Origin: Candidatus Parcubacteria bacterium
GTDB lineage: Bacteria; Patescibacteriota; Minisyncoccia; Minisyncoccales; JAGLUP01
Direction: 5' to 3'
DNA: 9,281 nucleotides
Assembly: GCA_023134715.1 (NCBI GenBank)
Contig: JAGLUP010000011.1
Location: 1-9,281 of the forward strand
Below the pieces are notes generated by a model. The model was not told the DNA's origin and did not search any database. It worked only from the letters and a program-made list of their open reading frames with translations. The position numbers were made by a program, and so were the translations under genes. How positions within the stretch are numbered: position 1 is the stretch's first letter; every line of letters starts with the position of its first letter. Positions 1-9,281 of this stretch are shown here, in pieces.

Positions 1-2
1 CT

Positions 3-941
3 CAATTAGCATATATGTCAATGCTTAAAAGAGGAGTAAAAGATATTTCTAAAATCAGACCGGTCAATGGATTTATAATTACTCCGGGAAGCGATAGTCA
101 AGGAAGATTTCATGATTCCCAGATTTTAGAAGGAGTAATGTCTATTTCTAAAACCGCGCTCCGTATACAAGGAGGAGGATTGTGCAGCGGAATGAGTAAA
201 AGTGCTACGTTGCCCGGTTTTACCTTTTATCAAGGAAAAGTATATCAAGAAGCGGCAATTTCAGTAATTTTGGGTTCAGAATTAGAAATTGGGTATGGAG
301 TAGGCGCTGGAGCTAAACCTATAGCTAATATTGGCATGATTACCAAAATAAAAGATTCTTGGACAATTGAAGAGATTAATCAAAGACCAGCATTAGAAGT
401 TTTCTCAGAAGTGTTTGATAAATATACAGAGTTTAAAAAGGAGCAGTTTATAAAAGATCCAGGCGCTGTATTTATAGCCGCTGGACTCAAAAAGGGATAT
501 CTTCCAGTTTTAGCTGAATCTTCTGCTGATTTCTTTTGGCCGTTGCTTATGCCAAAAGTCATTCAAAACAAATATATCAGATGTATGACTCCAATAAAAC
601 AAGGAACTCCTTTACTTTTAGGTTATATAAACAATGAATCAGCAAAAAAAGCCCCAGCAAACGCGACAAAATTAATGATAGAAGACATTGATTCTAAAAA
701 CTTTGGTTTTGTTTTCTTCTTTTCCTGCGCTTGCAGGGGAATGCTGTTAGGCAAAGATTATATGACAGAAATCAAAAAAATAAAAGAAACACTGGGAAAT
801 AAAGATATTCCCGTATTTGGAATAGCTTCCACAGGAGAGTCTGCTTTTTACAAAACTGGCTCACCAATTGGAACAGGATTCACTGTTACAATGCTCGGAA
901 TCTCCGATGAATCAATCTTTATTAGCAAGGAAGCAAGATAA
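3..941 (+). CDS. FIST-domain protein, 5' end missing (partial)
   Basis: This is the C-terminal portion of a FIST protein (FIST_N plus FIST_C), a family proposed to be a sensory domain for small ligands; the specific role here is unknown. Numbering from the ATG at 15, residues ~18-130 fit the later part of FIST_N (IQGGGLCSG, then FTFYQGKVYQEAAISVIL and a GVGAGAKPI segment). Residues ~150-297 fit FIST_C, with FFFSCACRGMLLG at 235-246 and GIASTGES at 269-276, close to the family's sCagRg and Gf.t.GE motifs. The frame stays open upstream of the ATG to the window edge, and the usual FIST_N beginning is absent, so the true start very probably lies outside. No membrane segment or attached signalling domain is visible in this part. 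It ends 42 nt before ftsZ. Family call is fairly secure; function is not. Confidence 0.75.
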   Translation, partial: QLAYMSMLKRGVKDISKIRPVNGFIITPGSDSQGRFHDSQILEGVMSISKTALRIQGGGLCSGMSKSATLPGFTFYQGKVYQEAAISVILGSELEIGYGVGAGAKPIANIGMITKIKDSWTIEEINQRPALEVFSEVFDKYTEFKKEQFIKDPGAVFIAAGLKKGYLPVLAESSADFFWPLLMPKVIQNKYIRCMTPIKQGTPLLLGYINNESAKKAPANATKLMIEDIDSKNFGFVFFFSCACRGMLLGKDYMTEIKKIKETLGNKDIPVFGIASTGESAFYKTGSPIGTGFTVTMLGISDESIFISKEAR

Positions 942-4210: not shown

Positions 4211-5450
4211 ATCAATAGAAGCAAGGGAAATTTTGGATTCAAGGGCGAATCCTACTATTGAAGTAGAATTAAAAACAAAGAATTTTTCTGTTTTTGCTTC
4301 TGTTCCTTCTGGCGCGTCAAAAGGAAAATATGAAGCAAAAGAATCAAGAGATAATAAAAAAAGATATGGGGGCAAAGGAGTTCTTGAGGCCGTAAAAAAT
4401 ATTAACGAAATTATTGCTCCTAAATTAAGAGGAAAAGATGTAAAAAAACAAAAGGAAATAGATGATTTAATGATTGAATTAGACGGAACAAAAGATAAAT
4501 CAAAATTAGGAGCCAATGCTATTTTAGCGGTAAGCATGGCTGTCTGCCGCGCCGGCGCAAAAACAAAAAACATTCCATTATATAAATACATCGCAAAACT
4601 TTCAGACGTCGGGTCTCTGAAAGTTTTGCCGAAGGCTTGTTTCAATGTTATTAATGGGGGAGTTCATTCCGGAAATGAATTAGATATTCAGGAGTTTATG
4701 ATTATTCCCCAAAAAAAATCTTTTTCTAAAAATCTGCAAACAGCCAGTGAAATTTACTATTGTCTAAAAGAAATTTTAAAAGAAAACTTTGGAAAATTCG
4801 CGATAAATATCGGAGATGAGGGCGGCTTTATTCCCCCTGTTTTCGGCACAAAATCCGCCTTGGGCCTATTGGTTAAAGCTATAAGGTCATCTGGTTATAA
4901 AAATATAAAAATTGGTCTGGATTGCGCTGCTTCCCAATTTTCAAAAGAACAAGCTTATTTATTAGAAAAGGTTTTTTTGACAAAACAAGGACTTTTAGAT
5001 TTTTATCAGGATTTAATAAAAGATTACCCCATTATTTTTTTAGAGGATCCATTTTCTGAAGAGGATTGGGAGGGTTTCTCCAAAATTACAAAAAAAATTG
5101 GTAAAAAAATTAGTATAATTGGTGATGACCTTTTGTGCACTAATCCGGAAAGGATAAAACAAGCAAAAGAAAGAAACGCGTGCAATGGTATGATTCTAAA
5201 ACCCAACCAAATAGGCACTATAACTGAAGCGCTGAAAGCCGCGGAATTAGCCAAATCTTTTGACTGGAAAATTATGGTTTCTCATCGTTCAGGCGATACT
5301 TGTGATGATTTTATTTCTGATTTAGCGGTCGGAATTTCAGCTGATTTCATAAAAGCCGGCGCTCCAGCCCGAGGAGAAAGGGTGGCAAAATACAACAGAT
5401 TATTAAAAATAGAAGAAGAAATAATAAATAAACAAAATAAGTATAATTAA
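4182..5450 (+). CDS. eno: Enolase (phosphopyruvate hydratase)
   Basis: Enolase interconverts 2-phosphoglycerate and phosphoenolpyruvate in lower glycolysis. The 422-aa product is close to the usual ~430. From the ATG at 4182: AREILDSRANPT at 14-25 (normally DSRGNPT), the mobile loop SVPSGASKG at 40-48, NGGVHSGN at 158-165, QEFM with catalytic-region Glu171, GDEGGF at 211-216 (Glu213), metal ligands Asp247 (LDCAAS), Glu288 (LEDP) and the Asp pair at 315-316 (GDDL), catalytic Lys340 (LKPNQIGT), SHRSGDT at 367-373 (normally SGET), and Lys391 before GAPARGERVAKYN. All expected catalytic and metal residues appear present. An in-frame TTG at 4143 would only lengthen the overlap with trxB; 4182 gives a family-typical N-terminus and overlaps trxB by 29 nt, which suggests translational coupling. 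It is the last gene of the packed left-hand cluster. Confidence 0.95.
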   Translation: MNIFKNSKIKSIEAREILDSRANPTIEVELKTKNFSVFASVPSGASKGKYEAKESRDNKKRYGGKGVLEAVKNINEIIAPKLRGKDVKKQKEIDDLMIELDGTKDKSKLGANAILAVSMAVCRAGAKTKNIPLYKYIAKLSDVGSLKVLPKACFNVINGGVHSGNELDIQEFMIIPQKKSFSKNLQTASEIYYCLKEILKENFGKFAINIGDEGGFIPPVFGTKSALGLLVKAIRSSGYKNIKIGLDCAASQFSKEQAYLLEKVFLTKQGLLDFYQDLIKDYPIIFLEDPFSEEDWEGFSKITKKIGKKISIIGDDLLCTNPERIKQAKERNACNGMILKPNQIGTITEALKAAELAKSFDWKIMVSHRSGDTCDDFISDLAVGISADFIKAGAPARGERVAKYNRLLKIEEEIINKQNKYN

Positions 5451-5464
5451 ATTAATTCTAAAGA

Positions 5465-5522
5465 TTTATTCTAATTAATAATTAAAAAAGGTTTATTTTA
5501 GTTTAGTTAAAATTTAGAATAA
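5465..5522 (+). promoter_or_regulatory. Pilin 1 leader: paired AT-rich element and hairpin
   Basis: Two related 12-mers, tttattctaatt at 5465-5476 and tttattttagtt at 5492-5503, lie 27 nt apart start to start. The second begins 43 nt before the pilin 1 ATG. TTATTTTA (5493-5500) can pair with TAGAATAA (5515-5522), giving an 8-bp stem with one G-U pair and a 14-nt interior. The same arrangement recurs before pilin 3. A promoter, a regulator site pair or an mRNA leader hairpin are all possible; the role is not determinable from sequence alone. Confidence 0.45.
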
Positions 5523-5534
5523 GATTTGAATAAT

Positions 5535-6725
5535 ATGTTTCTAAAATCAAAAAAAAGGGGGTTCACAGTCATAGAGCTTTTAGTGGTTATTGCTATTTTA
5601 GGATTATTGGCCTCTGTGGTTCTTGTTCATTTGAAAGGAGCTAAGGTCTCAGCCAGAGACGCTGAAAGAAAAGGAGAAGTGGATTCTATTCGTAAAGCAT
5701 TGGCTTTTTACTACACAGAACATAGTAAATATCCTGTATCTGGAGAATGGATATCTCTTGAAAAAGACGCGGAAGATGGTGGTCTTGTTTCCCAAGCATT
5801 ATCAGAATGGCTTCCTGATATGCCTGAAGACCCTCTTTATCCCAACACCAAAGAATCAACAGGAGAACCCTTTTCTTATCAGTATTCAACTGGAGAAACT
5901 GGAGGTTATGGATACAAAATTCGTACTGAAATGGAAAGCGTAGCTTATTCTTATCATGAGGTTTCTTCTGTCGGGGGCGGAAGCATTGTTTATGGAGACG
6001 GAGAGGAATTTACCTGCGGAACCGACACGGTCACCGATGAGGACGGAAATGTTTACAACATAGTTCTTCTTGGAACACAATGCTGGTTTGCAGAGAATTT
6101 AAAGTATGACGGGGATCCATCTGGCAATGGCTGTAAAGATGTAACTTGGGTAAATAACAGCGATGAGGGCTGGTGTGGAGATTACACTGGCGGACCCTTT
6201 ACTGACGAAGGATTATTATATCAATGGTCAACGGCAATGAATGGGGCTGTCACTGAAGGCGCTCAAGGTCTGTGTCCGACTGGATGGCATATACCTACTA
6301 CTGACGAGTGGATCGATTTAGAAAGGTATGCTTGCGAGCACAAGATTGACGCTAACACTTTCGATGAGTGCGCGATTACTTTTCCAAAAGATGATATCAT
6401 AGGGTGGAAAGGGCAAGACACGACTACCGCGAATGGAGAAGGAAGCTACTTAGCTGGAAATGAGGGTTTGTGGATTAATCACGACATTGACAATCACGGA
6501 GCTGGCGACAATGACTTTGGCGCTTCTGGTTTCCTCGCCCTTCCCGCGGGTTGCAGGTATGCCTCTGGCAGTTACAACAGTCGGAGCGCCCGCACATACT
6601 TATGGTCCTCCACTCAGAGCGACACTAATGCTTGGGTAGGGGAGTTGAGTCACGATTATACATATGTCGGCCGGTACAAGTACAGTAAGGCATACGCCTT
6701 TGCTATCCGCTGCCTCAAGGACTGA
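5535..6725 (+). CDS. Prepilin-like protein with C-terminal FISUMP domain (pilin 1)
   Basis: A surface protein built on a type IV pilin / GspG-like scaffold; 396 aa. Residues 1-9 are a short basic leader ending KKRG, then [21 protein letters not shown] (10-30) is the class III prepilin helix with Gly at -1 and Glu at +5. The stalk holds RKALAFYY (53-60), KYP (65-67) and a GspG-like PEDPLYP (97-103). After a glycine-rich linker (~145-156), residues ~160-396 match the FISUMP domain (Fibrobacter succinogenes major paralogous domain): DEDGNVYNIVLLGTQCWFAENL (168-189), LLYQWSTAMN (227-236), CPTGWHIPTTDEW (247-259), LPAG (336-339), WSST (357-360) and a final IRCLKD. The head has nine cysteines and is near 50% GC, unlike its ~30% GC neighbours. 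The ATG at 5535 is chosen over an in-frame TTG at 5526 because pilin 3 starts at the equivalent place. The last ~64 residues resemble a DGR variable region. The ligand is unknown. Confidence 0.88.
   Translation: MFLKSKKRGFTVIELLVVIAILGLLASVVLVHLKGAKVSARDAERKGEVDSIRKALAFYYTEHSKYPVSGEWISLEKDAEDGGLVSQALSEWLPDMPEDPLYPNTKESTGEPFSYQYSTGETGGYGYKIRTEMESVAYSYHEVSSVGGGSIVYGDGEEFTCGTDTVTDEDGNVYNIVLLGTQCWFAENLKYDGDPSGNGCKDVTWVNNSDEGWCGDYTGGPFTDEGLLYQWSTAMNGAVTEGAQGLCPTGWHIPTTDEWIDLERYACEHKIDANTFDECAITFPKDDIIGWKGQDTTTANGEGSYLAGNEGLWINHDIDNHGAGDNDFGASGFLALPAGCRYASGSYNSRSARTYLWSSTQSDTNAWVGELSHDYTYVGRYKYSKAYAFAIRCLKD
6531..6722 (+). other. Candidate DGR variable region in the pilin 1 FISUMP domain
   Basis: These 192 nt encode residues 333-396 of pilin 1 and are about 55% GC by hand count, against ~23% in a 60-nt sample of the nearby mutase gene. 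Around an invariant-looking frame (LPAG, WSST, AW, V, R, K, F, RC) the intervening positions are mostly Tyr, Ser, Gly, Asp, His, Ala or Arg. Most of these have NNY codons (tac, agt, cac, gat, ggc, gcc, cgc), the set expected when AAY codons of a template are randomised at adenines. C-terminal placement, with homing end near the stop, also fits DGR targets with C-type-lectin-like folds. No template repeat or reverse transcriptase is visible here, so an ordinary FISUMP C-terminus remains possible. Confidence 0.45.
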
Positions 6726-6740
6726 TCAGATAAAATAAAT

Positions 6741-6758
6741 ATGCCTCAATTAATTTTA
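6741..6758 (+). repeat. Near-copy of the gpmA start (direct repeat, left copy)
   Basis: This sequence matches 8360-8377, the first six codons of the phosphoglycerate mutase gene, at 17 of 18 positions (one C/G difference in codon 2). It begins with ATG and reads MPQLILKNLF before a stop at 6771-6773, against MAQLIL in the real gene. It lies 15 nt after the pilin 1 stop, a normal gene spacing. It looks like a remnant of a gpmA 5' end, leaving the pilin 2 leader and gene flanked by direct repeats. It is probably not a functional gene. Confidence 0.55.
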
Positions 6759-6763
6759 AAAAA

Positions 6764-6806
6764 TCTATTCTAAATTTAGCTAAAAAGATTTATTTTAGTT
6801 TAGTTA
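6764..6806 (+). promoter_or_regulatory. Pilin 2 leader: paired AT-rich element
   Basis: A degenerate copy tctattctaaat (6764-6775) and an exact copy tttattttagtt (6789-6800) of the leader element lie 25 nt apart. The stretch 6782-6806 matches 5485-5509 of the pilin 1 leader at 24 of 25 positions. A 10-bp palindrome TTTAGCTAAA is at 6775-6784. The right arm of the hairpin seen before pilins 1 and 3 is degraded here (only GAATA remains, 6814-6818). Shared ancestry with the other leaders is clear; function is not. Confidence 0.45.
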
Positions 6807-6825
6807 GATTTATGAATATGATTAT

Positions 6826-8355
6826 ATGCGATATATGGCAAAAAATAAATTAAAAAAGATATTTAGCTCAAAAACTAAACCTTTAAAAGGGCTTATTGTT
6901 ATAGAACTTTTAGTGGTTATTGCTGTTCTTTCTTTATTGGGTTCTCTTATTTTAGTTGAAATAAGAGACGCTCGAGCTATAGCCAGGGATGGGAAAAGAG
7001 ACGCTGAAGCTGGAGAGGAGAGGGGCAGTCTTCGCAAAGCTCTTGAAATGTATTATTTTACTGAAGGAAAATATCCCCATTCTATTAATTCAGAAACAGA
7101 CGATGGGTGCTGTATAGAAGAAGATGATGCAATTCAAACATTATTAGCTCCTTATTTTTACAGCATACCCGAAGATCCTCTTTATAAAGAAGATGACCCT
7201 CTCGCAACCGACCCTGATCCCGACAAAAGATTATTTAGATTTTGTTATCATTACAGAACAACCAATGAAGGAGAGAATTTCGCGACTCGAGTCAATTATG
7301 AAAGGGGAGGATACAAAGAGGTTGCTTCTTCTTGGTTTAGTATGTGGACAGGCGATGATGATGATGGAACATTTTCTACTATTCCCATGAAAGACGCTTT
7401 CTCGGTTTTTGTTTCCGGAAACTACGCCTATGTAACTTCAGGAGATCCAGCCGGCAAAGGATTAAATAAAATTAAGATTACTGATCCATCTAACCCCATA
7501 TTAGAAGAAAGCAGTAATGCAAATTTAAGCAACCCTGTTCGTGTAATAATTTCTGGAAACTACGCTTATATAGCTAATGGCACAGAAAAATCTTTATATA
7601 TTTATGACATTAATGATATAGCTGAACCTCTAGGAACTATTTCATTTAGTGGTTTAAGTAGCGCACATTCAATTGCTGTTTCTGGAAACTACGCTTATGT
7701 AATCGGTGACAAAATAGGGGCTACTGATAATAATTTTAGAGTAATTGATATTTCTGATCCAGAAAATCCTCAAGAAATAATAGGTCTTCAATTAAAAGCT
7801 GCTCCAAACGATATAAAAATTTCTGGAAATTACGCTTATATAGTTGGCGGTTATCATTTTTCAATTGTAAATATTTCTGATCCAGAAAATCCTGAAATAA
7901 AAAAAGAAATCTGTGATAATACAGTAAGCATGGGTTGTGGCGGTGATTATTACCATTTAAAAAATAGCGTTGCGATAGAAGTTTCTGGAAATTTTGCTTA
8001 TATAATGACTCTTTCTGGTCCAGCTACTCCTCACTTAAAAGGCTTAACTGTAATTGATATTTCTGACCCTAACAATTTAAAAGAGGAAGCATTTCTGCCT
8101 ATAGATGAAATAAACACAACTTATTTATATTCAGATATAGATATTTCTGGAAATTTTGCTTATGTTGGCAGTTATATGCCGCCTGGCTATATTATCACTA
8201 TTGATATTACTGATCCTTCTAATCCTGTTGAAACAAATATATTCTCTAACGACGAAATAGATTGTCCATATCAAATATTTATTCACGGAAGCCACGCTTA
8301 TATTGCTGTTCATTGTGACGATAATTTAAGTATTATTAGTCTTGATGAGCTATAA
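6826..8355 (+). CDS. Prepilin-like protein with seven-repeat LVIVD beta-propeller (pilin 2)
   Basis: A predicted membrane-anchored, pilus- or surface-associated protein of 509 aa. A basic leader ends KPLKG (18-22), followed by [22 protein letters not shown] (23-44), a class III prepilin helix with Gly at -1 and Glu at +5. The GspG-like stalk has RKALEMYY (70-77), KYP (82-84) and IPEDPLY (114-120). From ~190 to the end are seven LVIVD-type repeats, each with an SGN(Y/F)AY strand and most with a later I(D/N)ISDPxNP-like strand: SGN at 197, 243, 286, 333, 387 and 441, with a final HGSHAY at 487. Seven copies suit a seven-bladed beta-propeller, probably for protein or glycan binding; no catalytic motif is seen. 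Two in-frame ATGs are possible; 6826 is listed, while 6835 fits the leader-to-start spacing of pilins 1 and 3 better. No Shine-Dalgarno is visible. gpmA starts 4 nt after the stop. Confidence 0.85.
   Translation: MRYMAKNKLKKIFSSKTKPLKGLIVIELLVVIAVLSLLGSLILVEIRDARAIARDGKRDAEAGEERGSLRKALEMYYFTEGKYPHSINSETDDGCCIEEDDAIQTLLAPYFYSIPEDPLYKEDDPLATDPDPDKRLFRFCYHYRTTNEGENFATRVNYERGGYKEVASSWFSMWTGDDDDGTFSTIPMKDAFSVFVSGNYAYVTSGDPAGKGLNKIKITDPSNPILEESSNANLSNPVRVIISGNYAYIANGTEKSLYIYDINDIAEPLGTISFSGLSSAHSIAVSGNYAYVIGDKIGATDNNFRVIDISDPENPQEIIGLQLKAAPNDIKISGNYAYIVGGYHFSIVNISDPENPEIKKEICDNTVSMGCGGDYYHLKNSVAIEVSGNFAYIMTLSGPATPHLKGLTVIDISDPNNLKEEAFLPIDEINTTYLYSDIDISGNFAYVGSYMPPGYIITIDITDPSNPVETNIFSNDEIDCPYQIFIHGSHAYIAVHCDDNLSIISLDEL
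7396..8352 (+). repeat. Seven LVIVD propeller repeats within pilin 2
   Basis: Seven in-frame repeats of roughly 40-55 codons. At the DNA level the core tctggaaactacgcttat or a close variant recurs six times, from ~7414 to ~8160, and a diverged seventh (cacggaagccacgcttat) lies near 8284. The DNA-level similarity suggests internal duplication with moderate divergence. Repeat 5 has the longest insertion (an SGPATPHLKG segment after the SGNFAY strand), and repeat 7 ends without the DPxNP strand, which is typical of a closing blade. Confidence 0.75.
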
Positions 8356-9043: not shown

Positions 9044-9081
9044 GTTTTTAAACTATGCTTTTCAAAATATCTAATTAAGGA

Positions 9082-9138
9082 TTCATTTTAATTTAGCTGA
9101 AAAGATGTTTATTCTAATTTTTAACTAAAATAGAATAA
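9082..9138 (+). promoter_or_regulatory. Pilin 3 leader: paired AT-rich element and perfect hairpin
   Basis: Two element copies, ttcattttaatt at 9082-9093 and tttattctaatt at 9108-9119, lie 26 nt apart; the second starts 44 nt before the pilin 3 ATG. TTATTCTA (9109-9116) and TAGAATAA (9131-9138) are perfect inverted repeats, extendable by TTT/AAA after one mismatch, with a loop of about 6 nt. Arm-to-arm offset is 22 nt, identical to the pilin 1 leader, where the one differing position becomes a G-U pair. The absence of a following T-run and its place before a gene argue against a simple terminator. Confidence 0.5.
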
Positions 9139-9151
9139 TATCCGAAATAAT

Positions 9152-9281
9152 ATGTTCAAAAAATCAGAAAAATCATTCACAGTCATAGAACTCTTAGTAG
9201 TTATTGCTGTTTTGGGGCTTTTAGCTTCTATGGTTCTTGTTCATCTGAAAAACGCTAAGGCGTCAGCCAGAGACGCTGAAA
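9152..9281 (+). CDS. Prepilin-like protein, N-terminus only (pilin 3, partial)
   Basis: Forty-three codons are visible before the window ends. MFKKSEKS is a short basic leader, then [21 protein letters not shown] is the prepilin helix with Glu at +5, followed by [14 protein letters not shown]. From the conserved Phe onward it is about 84% identical to pilin 1 at DNA level (17 differences in 106 nt by hand count), so it is a recent paralogue or is being homogenised with it. The residue at the peptidase -1 position is Ser rather than the usual Gly. The start is the ATG in the same aataatATG context as pilin 1. The head domain lies beyond the window and cannot be predicted, although the closeness to pilin 1 makes another FISUMP head plausible. 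Confidence 0.85.

Follow-up and report, generated by a model that had tools for sequence, protein, structure and literature searches.

DGRs are enriched in CPR bacteria. According to a global survey, their targets in these organisms typically carry no transmembrane or other conserved domain that can be recognised (PMC8144416). In human microbiomes, the FISUMP domain has been reported as a DGR target (PMC4159848), and the tip pilins of the type V pili of Bacteroides are, as summarised in PMC12632263, diversified by a DGR (Macadangdang et al. 2024). Here we analyze pilin 1, a pilin-like protein carrying a FISUMP domain and encoded in a genome of a CPR-type order. The window, i.e. the whole stretch of DNA analyzed, comprises the 9,281 nucleotides at positions 1–9281 of contig C3, from an assembly of 761,603 bases in 12 contigs with an estimated completeness of 90%; the present genome is the only one of its GTDB family. 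The reading that we favor, with a probability slightly better than even, is that the tip of pilin 1 is a DGR variable region (VR), orphaned or retired, in a family of pilins with a common stalk and swapped heads.

Architecture of pilin 1 and organization of the pilin family

Pilin 1 is encoded on the forward strand at positions 5526–6725 by an ORF of 399 residues with a TTG start (an alternative in-frame ATG is located at 5535) and matches the Pfam families N_methyl and Fib_succ_major. The first match, PF07963 (residues 8–33, E = 1e-7, 31.7 bits vs. a cut-off of 21.2), covers the N-terminal methylation segment and prepilin helix (5547–5624, forward strand), where the prepilin motif with the GFTxxELL helix is present. 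The second, PF09603 (residues 182–398, E = 2e-27, 97 bits vs. a cut-off of 33.9, profile positions 3–187 of 187), corresponds to the FISUMP head (6069–6719, forward strand), for which a C-type-lectin-like fold is predicted. The stalk (5625–6008, forward strand) shares 77–81% DNA identity with the pilins at C6:62121 and C8:16842, the heads of which are FISUMP and PKD+LamG. A VR-type region, delimited by the columns of 11 real templates of relatives, occupies 6549–6722 on the same strand. A PHROGs search gave a match confined to the pilin N terminus. The locus is situated between the genes of enolase and phosphoglycerate mutase. Judged from its sequence, pilin 1 is type IV pilin-like and ends in a FISUMP domain, which bears out the pilin-displayed FISUMP domain placed at 6531–6722 by the first-pass annotation, N_methyl and PF09603 being found in one ORF.

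Pilin 2 (6826–8355, forward strand) belongs to the same cluster; its prepilin N terminus is related to that of pilin 1 (similarity over residues 10–206) and its head is an LVIVD β-propeller (PF08309, four repeats). Of pilin 3 (9146–9281, forward strand), only the start of the stalk lies on the contig, which breaks off in a repeat also found at the end of contig C8. A related AT-rich element (TTTATTTTAGTTTAGTTA...) precedes all three pilins of the window, at 5434–5503, 6732–6800 and 9060–9150; the copy upstream of pilin 1, on the forward strand, is promoter- or leader-like and 77% identical to the one upstream of pilin 2. The pilins on C6 and C8 have a common upstream element, TTTTCCACATGTAAATTTTTGAAAAAGTGTTAAACT, which differs from that of the window pilins, so that there are seemingly two promoter classes. 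The FISUMP pilin on C10 is followed downstream by a short ORF (L019, 4039–4296) made up of tandem repeats of acidic character (EETTEETSKEGESS).

Within the source genome, the heads found on the common stalk are FISUMP, PKD+LamG and a NosD-like β-helix, and the LVIVD propeller pilin is related to them. Analysis of the contig ends reveals that the same 24 bases close C3 and C8 and that the same 25 bases open C10 and C11, the latter repeat lying approximately 320 bases further along than the former on the pilin 1 ruler. These stalk sequences common to the ends of C3 and C8 and to the starts of C10 and C11 point to two pilins whose stalks are almost identical and whose heads, one FISUMP and the other a NosD-like β-helix, are unrelated. 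The occurrence of the same stalk with different heads suggests, from the repeat structure, that head swapping is the more likely route by which this genome itself would generate tip diversity. A DGR cassette hidden at a contig break was considered and is unlikely, since the breaks of C3, C8, C10 and C11 fall in the repeated pilin stalk, which explains the pilin-related contig ends without a missing cassette. A further break caused by a repeat is seen at the starts of C1 and C3, which share the same 25 bases and lie inside FIST-domain paralogues (window 1–941; L184 on C1, 1–929). The short contigs C4 (L187) and C12 (L195) appear phage-like by eye, with small terminase-like and nuclease-like ORFs.

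Predicted fold of the head

The FISUMP head was modelled with AlphaFold2 (pLDDT 75, pTM 0.79). A phmmer search against PDB sequences returned nothing, and Foldseek alone gave no match below E = 0.001; the C-type-lectin matches emerged only with a second look by VIA-align. The matches obtained in this way are CarF (Z 8.2), the C-terminal domain of Lcl (Z 7.6), FGE (Z 6.9), the C-terminal domain of Bd2740 (Z 6.8) and many C-type lectins. Z scores below 8 are modest, but nearly all matches belong to one fold, which is C-type-lectin-like. Targets of DGRs commonly have such folds; in pilin 1, the VR-type region forms the C terminus of the modelled domain, for which the matches to C-type lectins, FGE and the Lcl C-terminal domain lie at Z 4–8.

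Codon composition of the C-terminal region

The last 64 residues of pilin 1 (6531–6722) read FLALPAGCRYASGSYNSRSARTYLWSSTQSDTNAWVGELSHDYTYVGRYKYSKAYAFAIRCLKD. The constant-frame motifs listed for them by the first-pass annotation are all present, apart from a one-residue slip in RxKxxxKAxxF, which is actually RxKxxKAxxF, and the residue bias was described correctly. The GC content, estimated at ~55%, is 54.5% (37–50% upstream in the gene), and the NNY codons, said to be in the majority, amount to 71% (43–65% upstream). The rise in GC is confined to codon position 3 (GC3 of 0.65 vs. 0.23–0.48 upstream in the gene); positions 1 and 2 remain flat at ~0.49. The constant frame as such follows the usual consensus of FISUMP domains, which is also found in Bacteroidetes FISUMPs without a reverse transcriptase (RT) in the locus. 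It is the codon pattern, not the frame, that stands above chance in this region.

We set 16 AAY columns from the codons of 11 real templates in relatives, without reference to the source genome. The corresponding candidate template-adenine codons of pilin 1 are located on the forward strand at 6552, 6558, 6576, 6579, 6591, 6597, 6627, 6636, 6642, 6648, 6657, 6669, 6675, 6681, 6684 and 6693. NNY codons are found at 14 of these 16 columns, the exceptions being GTA at 6636 and GAG at 6642, two columns where AAA or AGA stands in some real templates. Pooled over the three FISUMP heads of the genome, NNY codons occupy 43/47 template-AAY columns vs. 77/120 constant columns (p = 2e-4), and the same comparison for the pilin 1 head alone gives p = 0.054. 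In addition, third-position A is rare in the constant frame of pilin 1 (4/42 vs. 95/340 elsewhere in the gene, p = 0.005).

DGRs with FISUMP targets in other genomes of the order

Among 247 genomes of the order, FISUMP is found in 41 and RT in 92, often side by side. Ten genuine DGR loci with a FISUMP target were identified, in which template, VR and DGR-type RT occur together. Their template/VR mismatches fall almost only at template adenines, the VR is the FISUMP C terminus, and the RTs carry YVDD and, in most cases, the DGR-type IGNLTSQ. The templates of relatives have AAY codons at fixed columns and rarely use A as the third base of constant-frame codons. In at least two of the ten loci, L102 (G084) and L105 (G146), the DGR target is an N_methyl + FISUMP pilin beside template and RT, showing that DGRs do diversify FISUMP heads displayed on pilins in this order; the target of L106 (G146) has an N terminus of the same kind. 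A search for template and RT at the database FISUMP loci L120–L143 found none, and a scan of viral contigs yielded one FISUMP, a distant one. The assignment of pilin 1 as a DGR target is therefore right as to kind, in view of the ten FISUMP DGRs of the order, the similar codons and the sister relationship of its head to the pilin target of L102 (see below), but not as to the current presence of a DGR.

Comparison of the pilin 1 head with true variable regions

At the 13 strongest columns, NNY codons are found at 126/130 positions in true VRs, at 11/13 in pilin 1, 13/13 in the C6 paralogue and 11/13 in that of C10, and at 75% in other FISUMPs. Tyr, Asn and Ser at template columns are common in all FISUMPs, and NNY counts alone were dropped as proof of a DGR because FISUMPs outside DGRs also prefer such residues. 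For third-position A of constant-frame codons, the ratio of the observed to the amino-acid-matched expected frequency amounts to 0.18 in true VRs and 0.35 in the source genome, vs. 0.89 in the outgroup, mostly Bacteroidetes, and 0.78 in other FISUMPs of the order. GC3 climbs toward the end of pilin 1, as it does in true VRs. This rise was at one point taken as evidence against a DGR, mutagenesis concerning codon positions 1 and 2, an argument that we dropped; it fits a DGR origin because constant-frame codons of real templates seldom end in A.

These features were brought together in a combined score, with parameters set by hand from class frequencies, which ranges from +0.4 to +13.7 for most true VRs and from −1 to −31 for most other sequences. 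The heads of pilin 1 (+0.5), at the class boundary, and of C10 (+1.1) score lower than that of C6 (+5.4), inside the true VR range. When pilin 1 is compared with the nearest foreign template, mismatches amount to 42% at A vs. 30% elsewhere (p = 0.09), a weak A-specific excess. The DGR signature of the pilin 1 copy alone is borderline, and that of the C6 paralogue is clearer. In a tree built from the portion of the head that precedes the variable region, the pilin 1 head is sister to L102 and to L066, an orphan VR-type head from G016 (support 99/98), within a group of 25 rows that contains 11 of the 15 DGR-type heads. The DGR label is scattered on this tree, its clustering being not beyond chance (185/500 shuffles).

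It could be argued that the FISUMP head of pilin 1 is an ordinary one and was at no time controlled by a DGR, the frame being the family consensus shared across Bacteroidetes and the richness in Tyr, Ser and Asn resulting from selection on the ligand-binding surface. Some FISUMPs without an RT in the locus also reach 12–13/13 NNY codons, the score of pilin 1 is borderline, and the source genome holds neither RT nor template (see below). We regard this explanation as unlikely, since low third-position A in the constant frame, when combined with the rise in GC3 and with NNY codons at template columns, characterizes true VRs and is seldom seen in the outgroup, the C6 paralogue scores within the range of true VRs, and the sister of the head is a pilin target that has RT and template. 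On the evidence of codons and phylogeny, the pilin 1 head is probably DGR-derived.

Search for a reverse transcriptase and a template

Genome-wide searches covered the 90%-complete assembly, in which contig C2 (2,092 bases) is masked as N. In this sequence, the RT profile PF00078 (RVT_1) found no match at E ≤ 1, and a profile built from ten DGR RTs of relatives found none at E ≤ 10; the latter retrieved the RTs of two control genomes at 1e-166 and better. For the template of the pilin 1 head, a DNA search with a query of 401 bases and a pattern allowing for changes at adenines matched only the locus itself in the assembly, and DNA searches of the assembly with the FISUMP heads at C6:62619–63185 and C10:22382–22693 gave no template either. 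Sensitivity is ample, since the true template/VR pairs of relatives obtain E values between 1e-22 and 1e-69 when 300 Mb are searched. The templates and RTs of relatives lie 3′ of the heads; the assembled 3′ flanks of all three FISUMP heads contain other genes and neither template nor RT. The RT and template repeat foreseen by the first-pass annotation are accordingly not found in the 761 kb, 90%-complete assembly, which largely goes against its proposal.

The constant frame was examined at 23 columns that do not vary among templates. Live VRs deviate on average at 2.9 of them, VR-type heads from RT-less genomes at 4.75, the heads of the source genome at 6.7 (seven in pilin 1, including the terminal change from GF-S-V to AF-A-I) and non-DGR FISUMPs at 9.4. 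Such drift is expected if template copying has ceased to renew the frame. The earlier view of a hypervariable region is not supported for the present state, the assembly holding no RT and no template for any of the three heads, and the frame having drifted where live VRs are conserved.

A live DGR acting in trans on at least one of the three heads, its RT and template being present in the cell and missing from the assembly (on an unbinned contig or a mobile element), would account for the VR-like codons. The 12 contigs, the 90% completeness and the exclusion of C2 leave room for it, and the DGR loci of relatives are often close to contig ends. It is nevertheless rather improbable: the assembly covers the 3′ side of each of the three heads, the contig ends are explained by the stalk repeat, the constant columns have drifted, and the three heads are too divergent outside the adenine columns to share one template.

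VR-type FISUMP heads are also found in at least six further RT-less genomes of the order. The full VR-type signature, with no RT found, is observed for L054 (G164), L052 (G141), L165 (G049), L066 (G016), L119 (G144) and L064 (G001). Some of the RT-less genomes with VR-type FISUMPs are 98–99% complete in few contigs; some of the heads are located at contig ends, which makes the absence of an RT less certain there.

Proposed origin of the pilin 1 head

In the preferred reading, that of an orphan or retired variable region, the last ~58 residues of pilin 1 would descend from a DGR variable region. In relatives, this family of heads is diversified by an adenine-mutagenised template copied into the gene end, and the source genome would have lost its DGR, rather than the DGR being absent from the assembly, or would have received the head without one. 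In either case the surface residues Tyr, Ser, Asn, Gly and Arg, encoded by NNY codons, would now form a fixed, slowly drifting binding surface at the putative pilus tip, and the natural reading of such a protein is a pilus-borne adhesin. Present diversity would come from several pilins with one stalk and different heads (FISUMP three times, PKD+LamG, LVIVD propeller and NosD β-helix). More speculatively, and with doubts on our part, heads already diversified by DGRs may outlive the retroelement, or part from it, and be passed around as finished adhesin tips, each joined by recombination to a shared pilin stalk. If this were true, bacteria without any DGR would still profit from DGR-made diversity, the source genome with its three orphan heads being an example.

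Comparison with known systems

What is new here is a kind of DGR target in a CPR-type order, the type IV pilin–FISUMP protein, together with orphan heads of VR type in genomes that lack the retroelement. For this order, a kind of DGR target is now identified, namely a FISUMP lectin-like head, sometimes on a type IV pilin, which is a plausible organ of host contact. Moreover, NNY codons at template columns combined with an adenine-poor constant frame may allow former DGR targets to be recognized where the retroelement is no longer present, so that DGR losses would become countable.

Like the FISUMP-type targets of DGRs, pilin 1 has its VR-type region at the C terminus of a domain of predicted C-type-lectin fold, with NNY codons at template-AAY columns and an adenine-poor constant frame; it differs from them by eroded constant columns, a weak adenine-specific signal and a genome without RT or template. 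Close counterparts are the targets of L102 and L105/L106, which likewise combine an N_methyl pilin N terminus with a FISUMP head, that of L102 being sister to the head of pilin 1, whereas their template and RT are next door and their stalk sequences are different. With respect to structure, the CLec-fold adhesin domain of Legionella Lcl (8q4e, C-terminal domain; Z 7.6 over 102 residues) and the CLec-fold fimbrial protein of Bacteroides (4eps; Z 4.8 over 113 residues) are among the best matches to the modelled head, with 11–17% sequence identity, Z values below 8 indicating a common arrangement only. Finally, the tip pilins of the Bacteroides type V pili, as far as they are described in PMC12632263, resemble pilin 1 in joining a diversified lectin-like domain to a pilus tip subunit, assuming that pilin 1 is located at the tip. 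They belong to type V fimbriae and follow lipoprotein sorting, whereas pilin 1 is predicted to be a type IV prepilin in a genome without a DGR.
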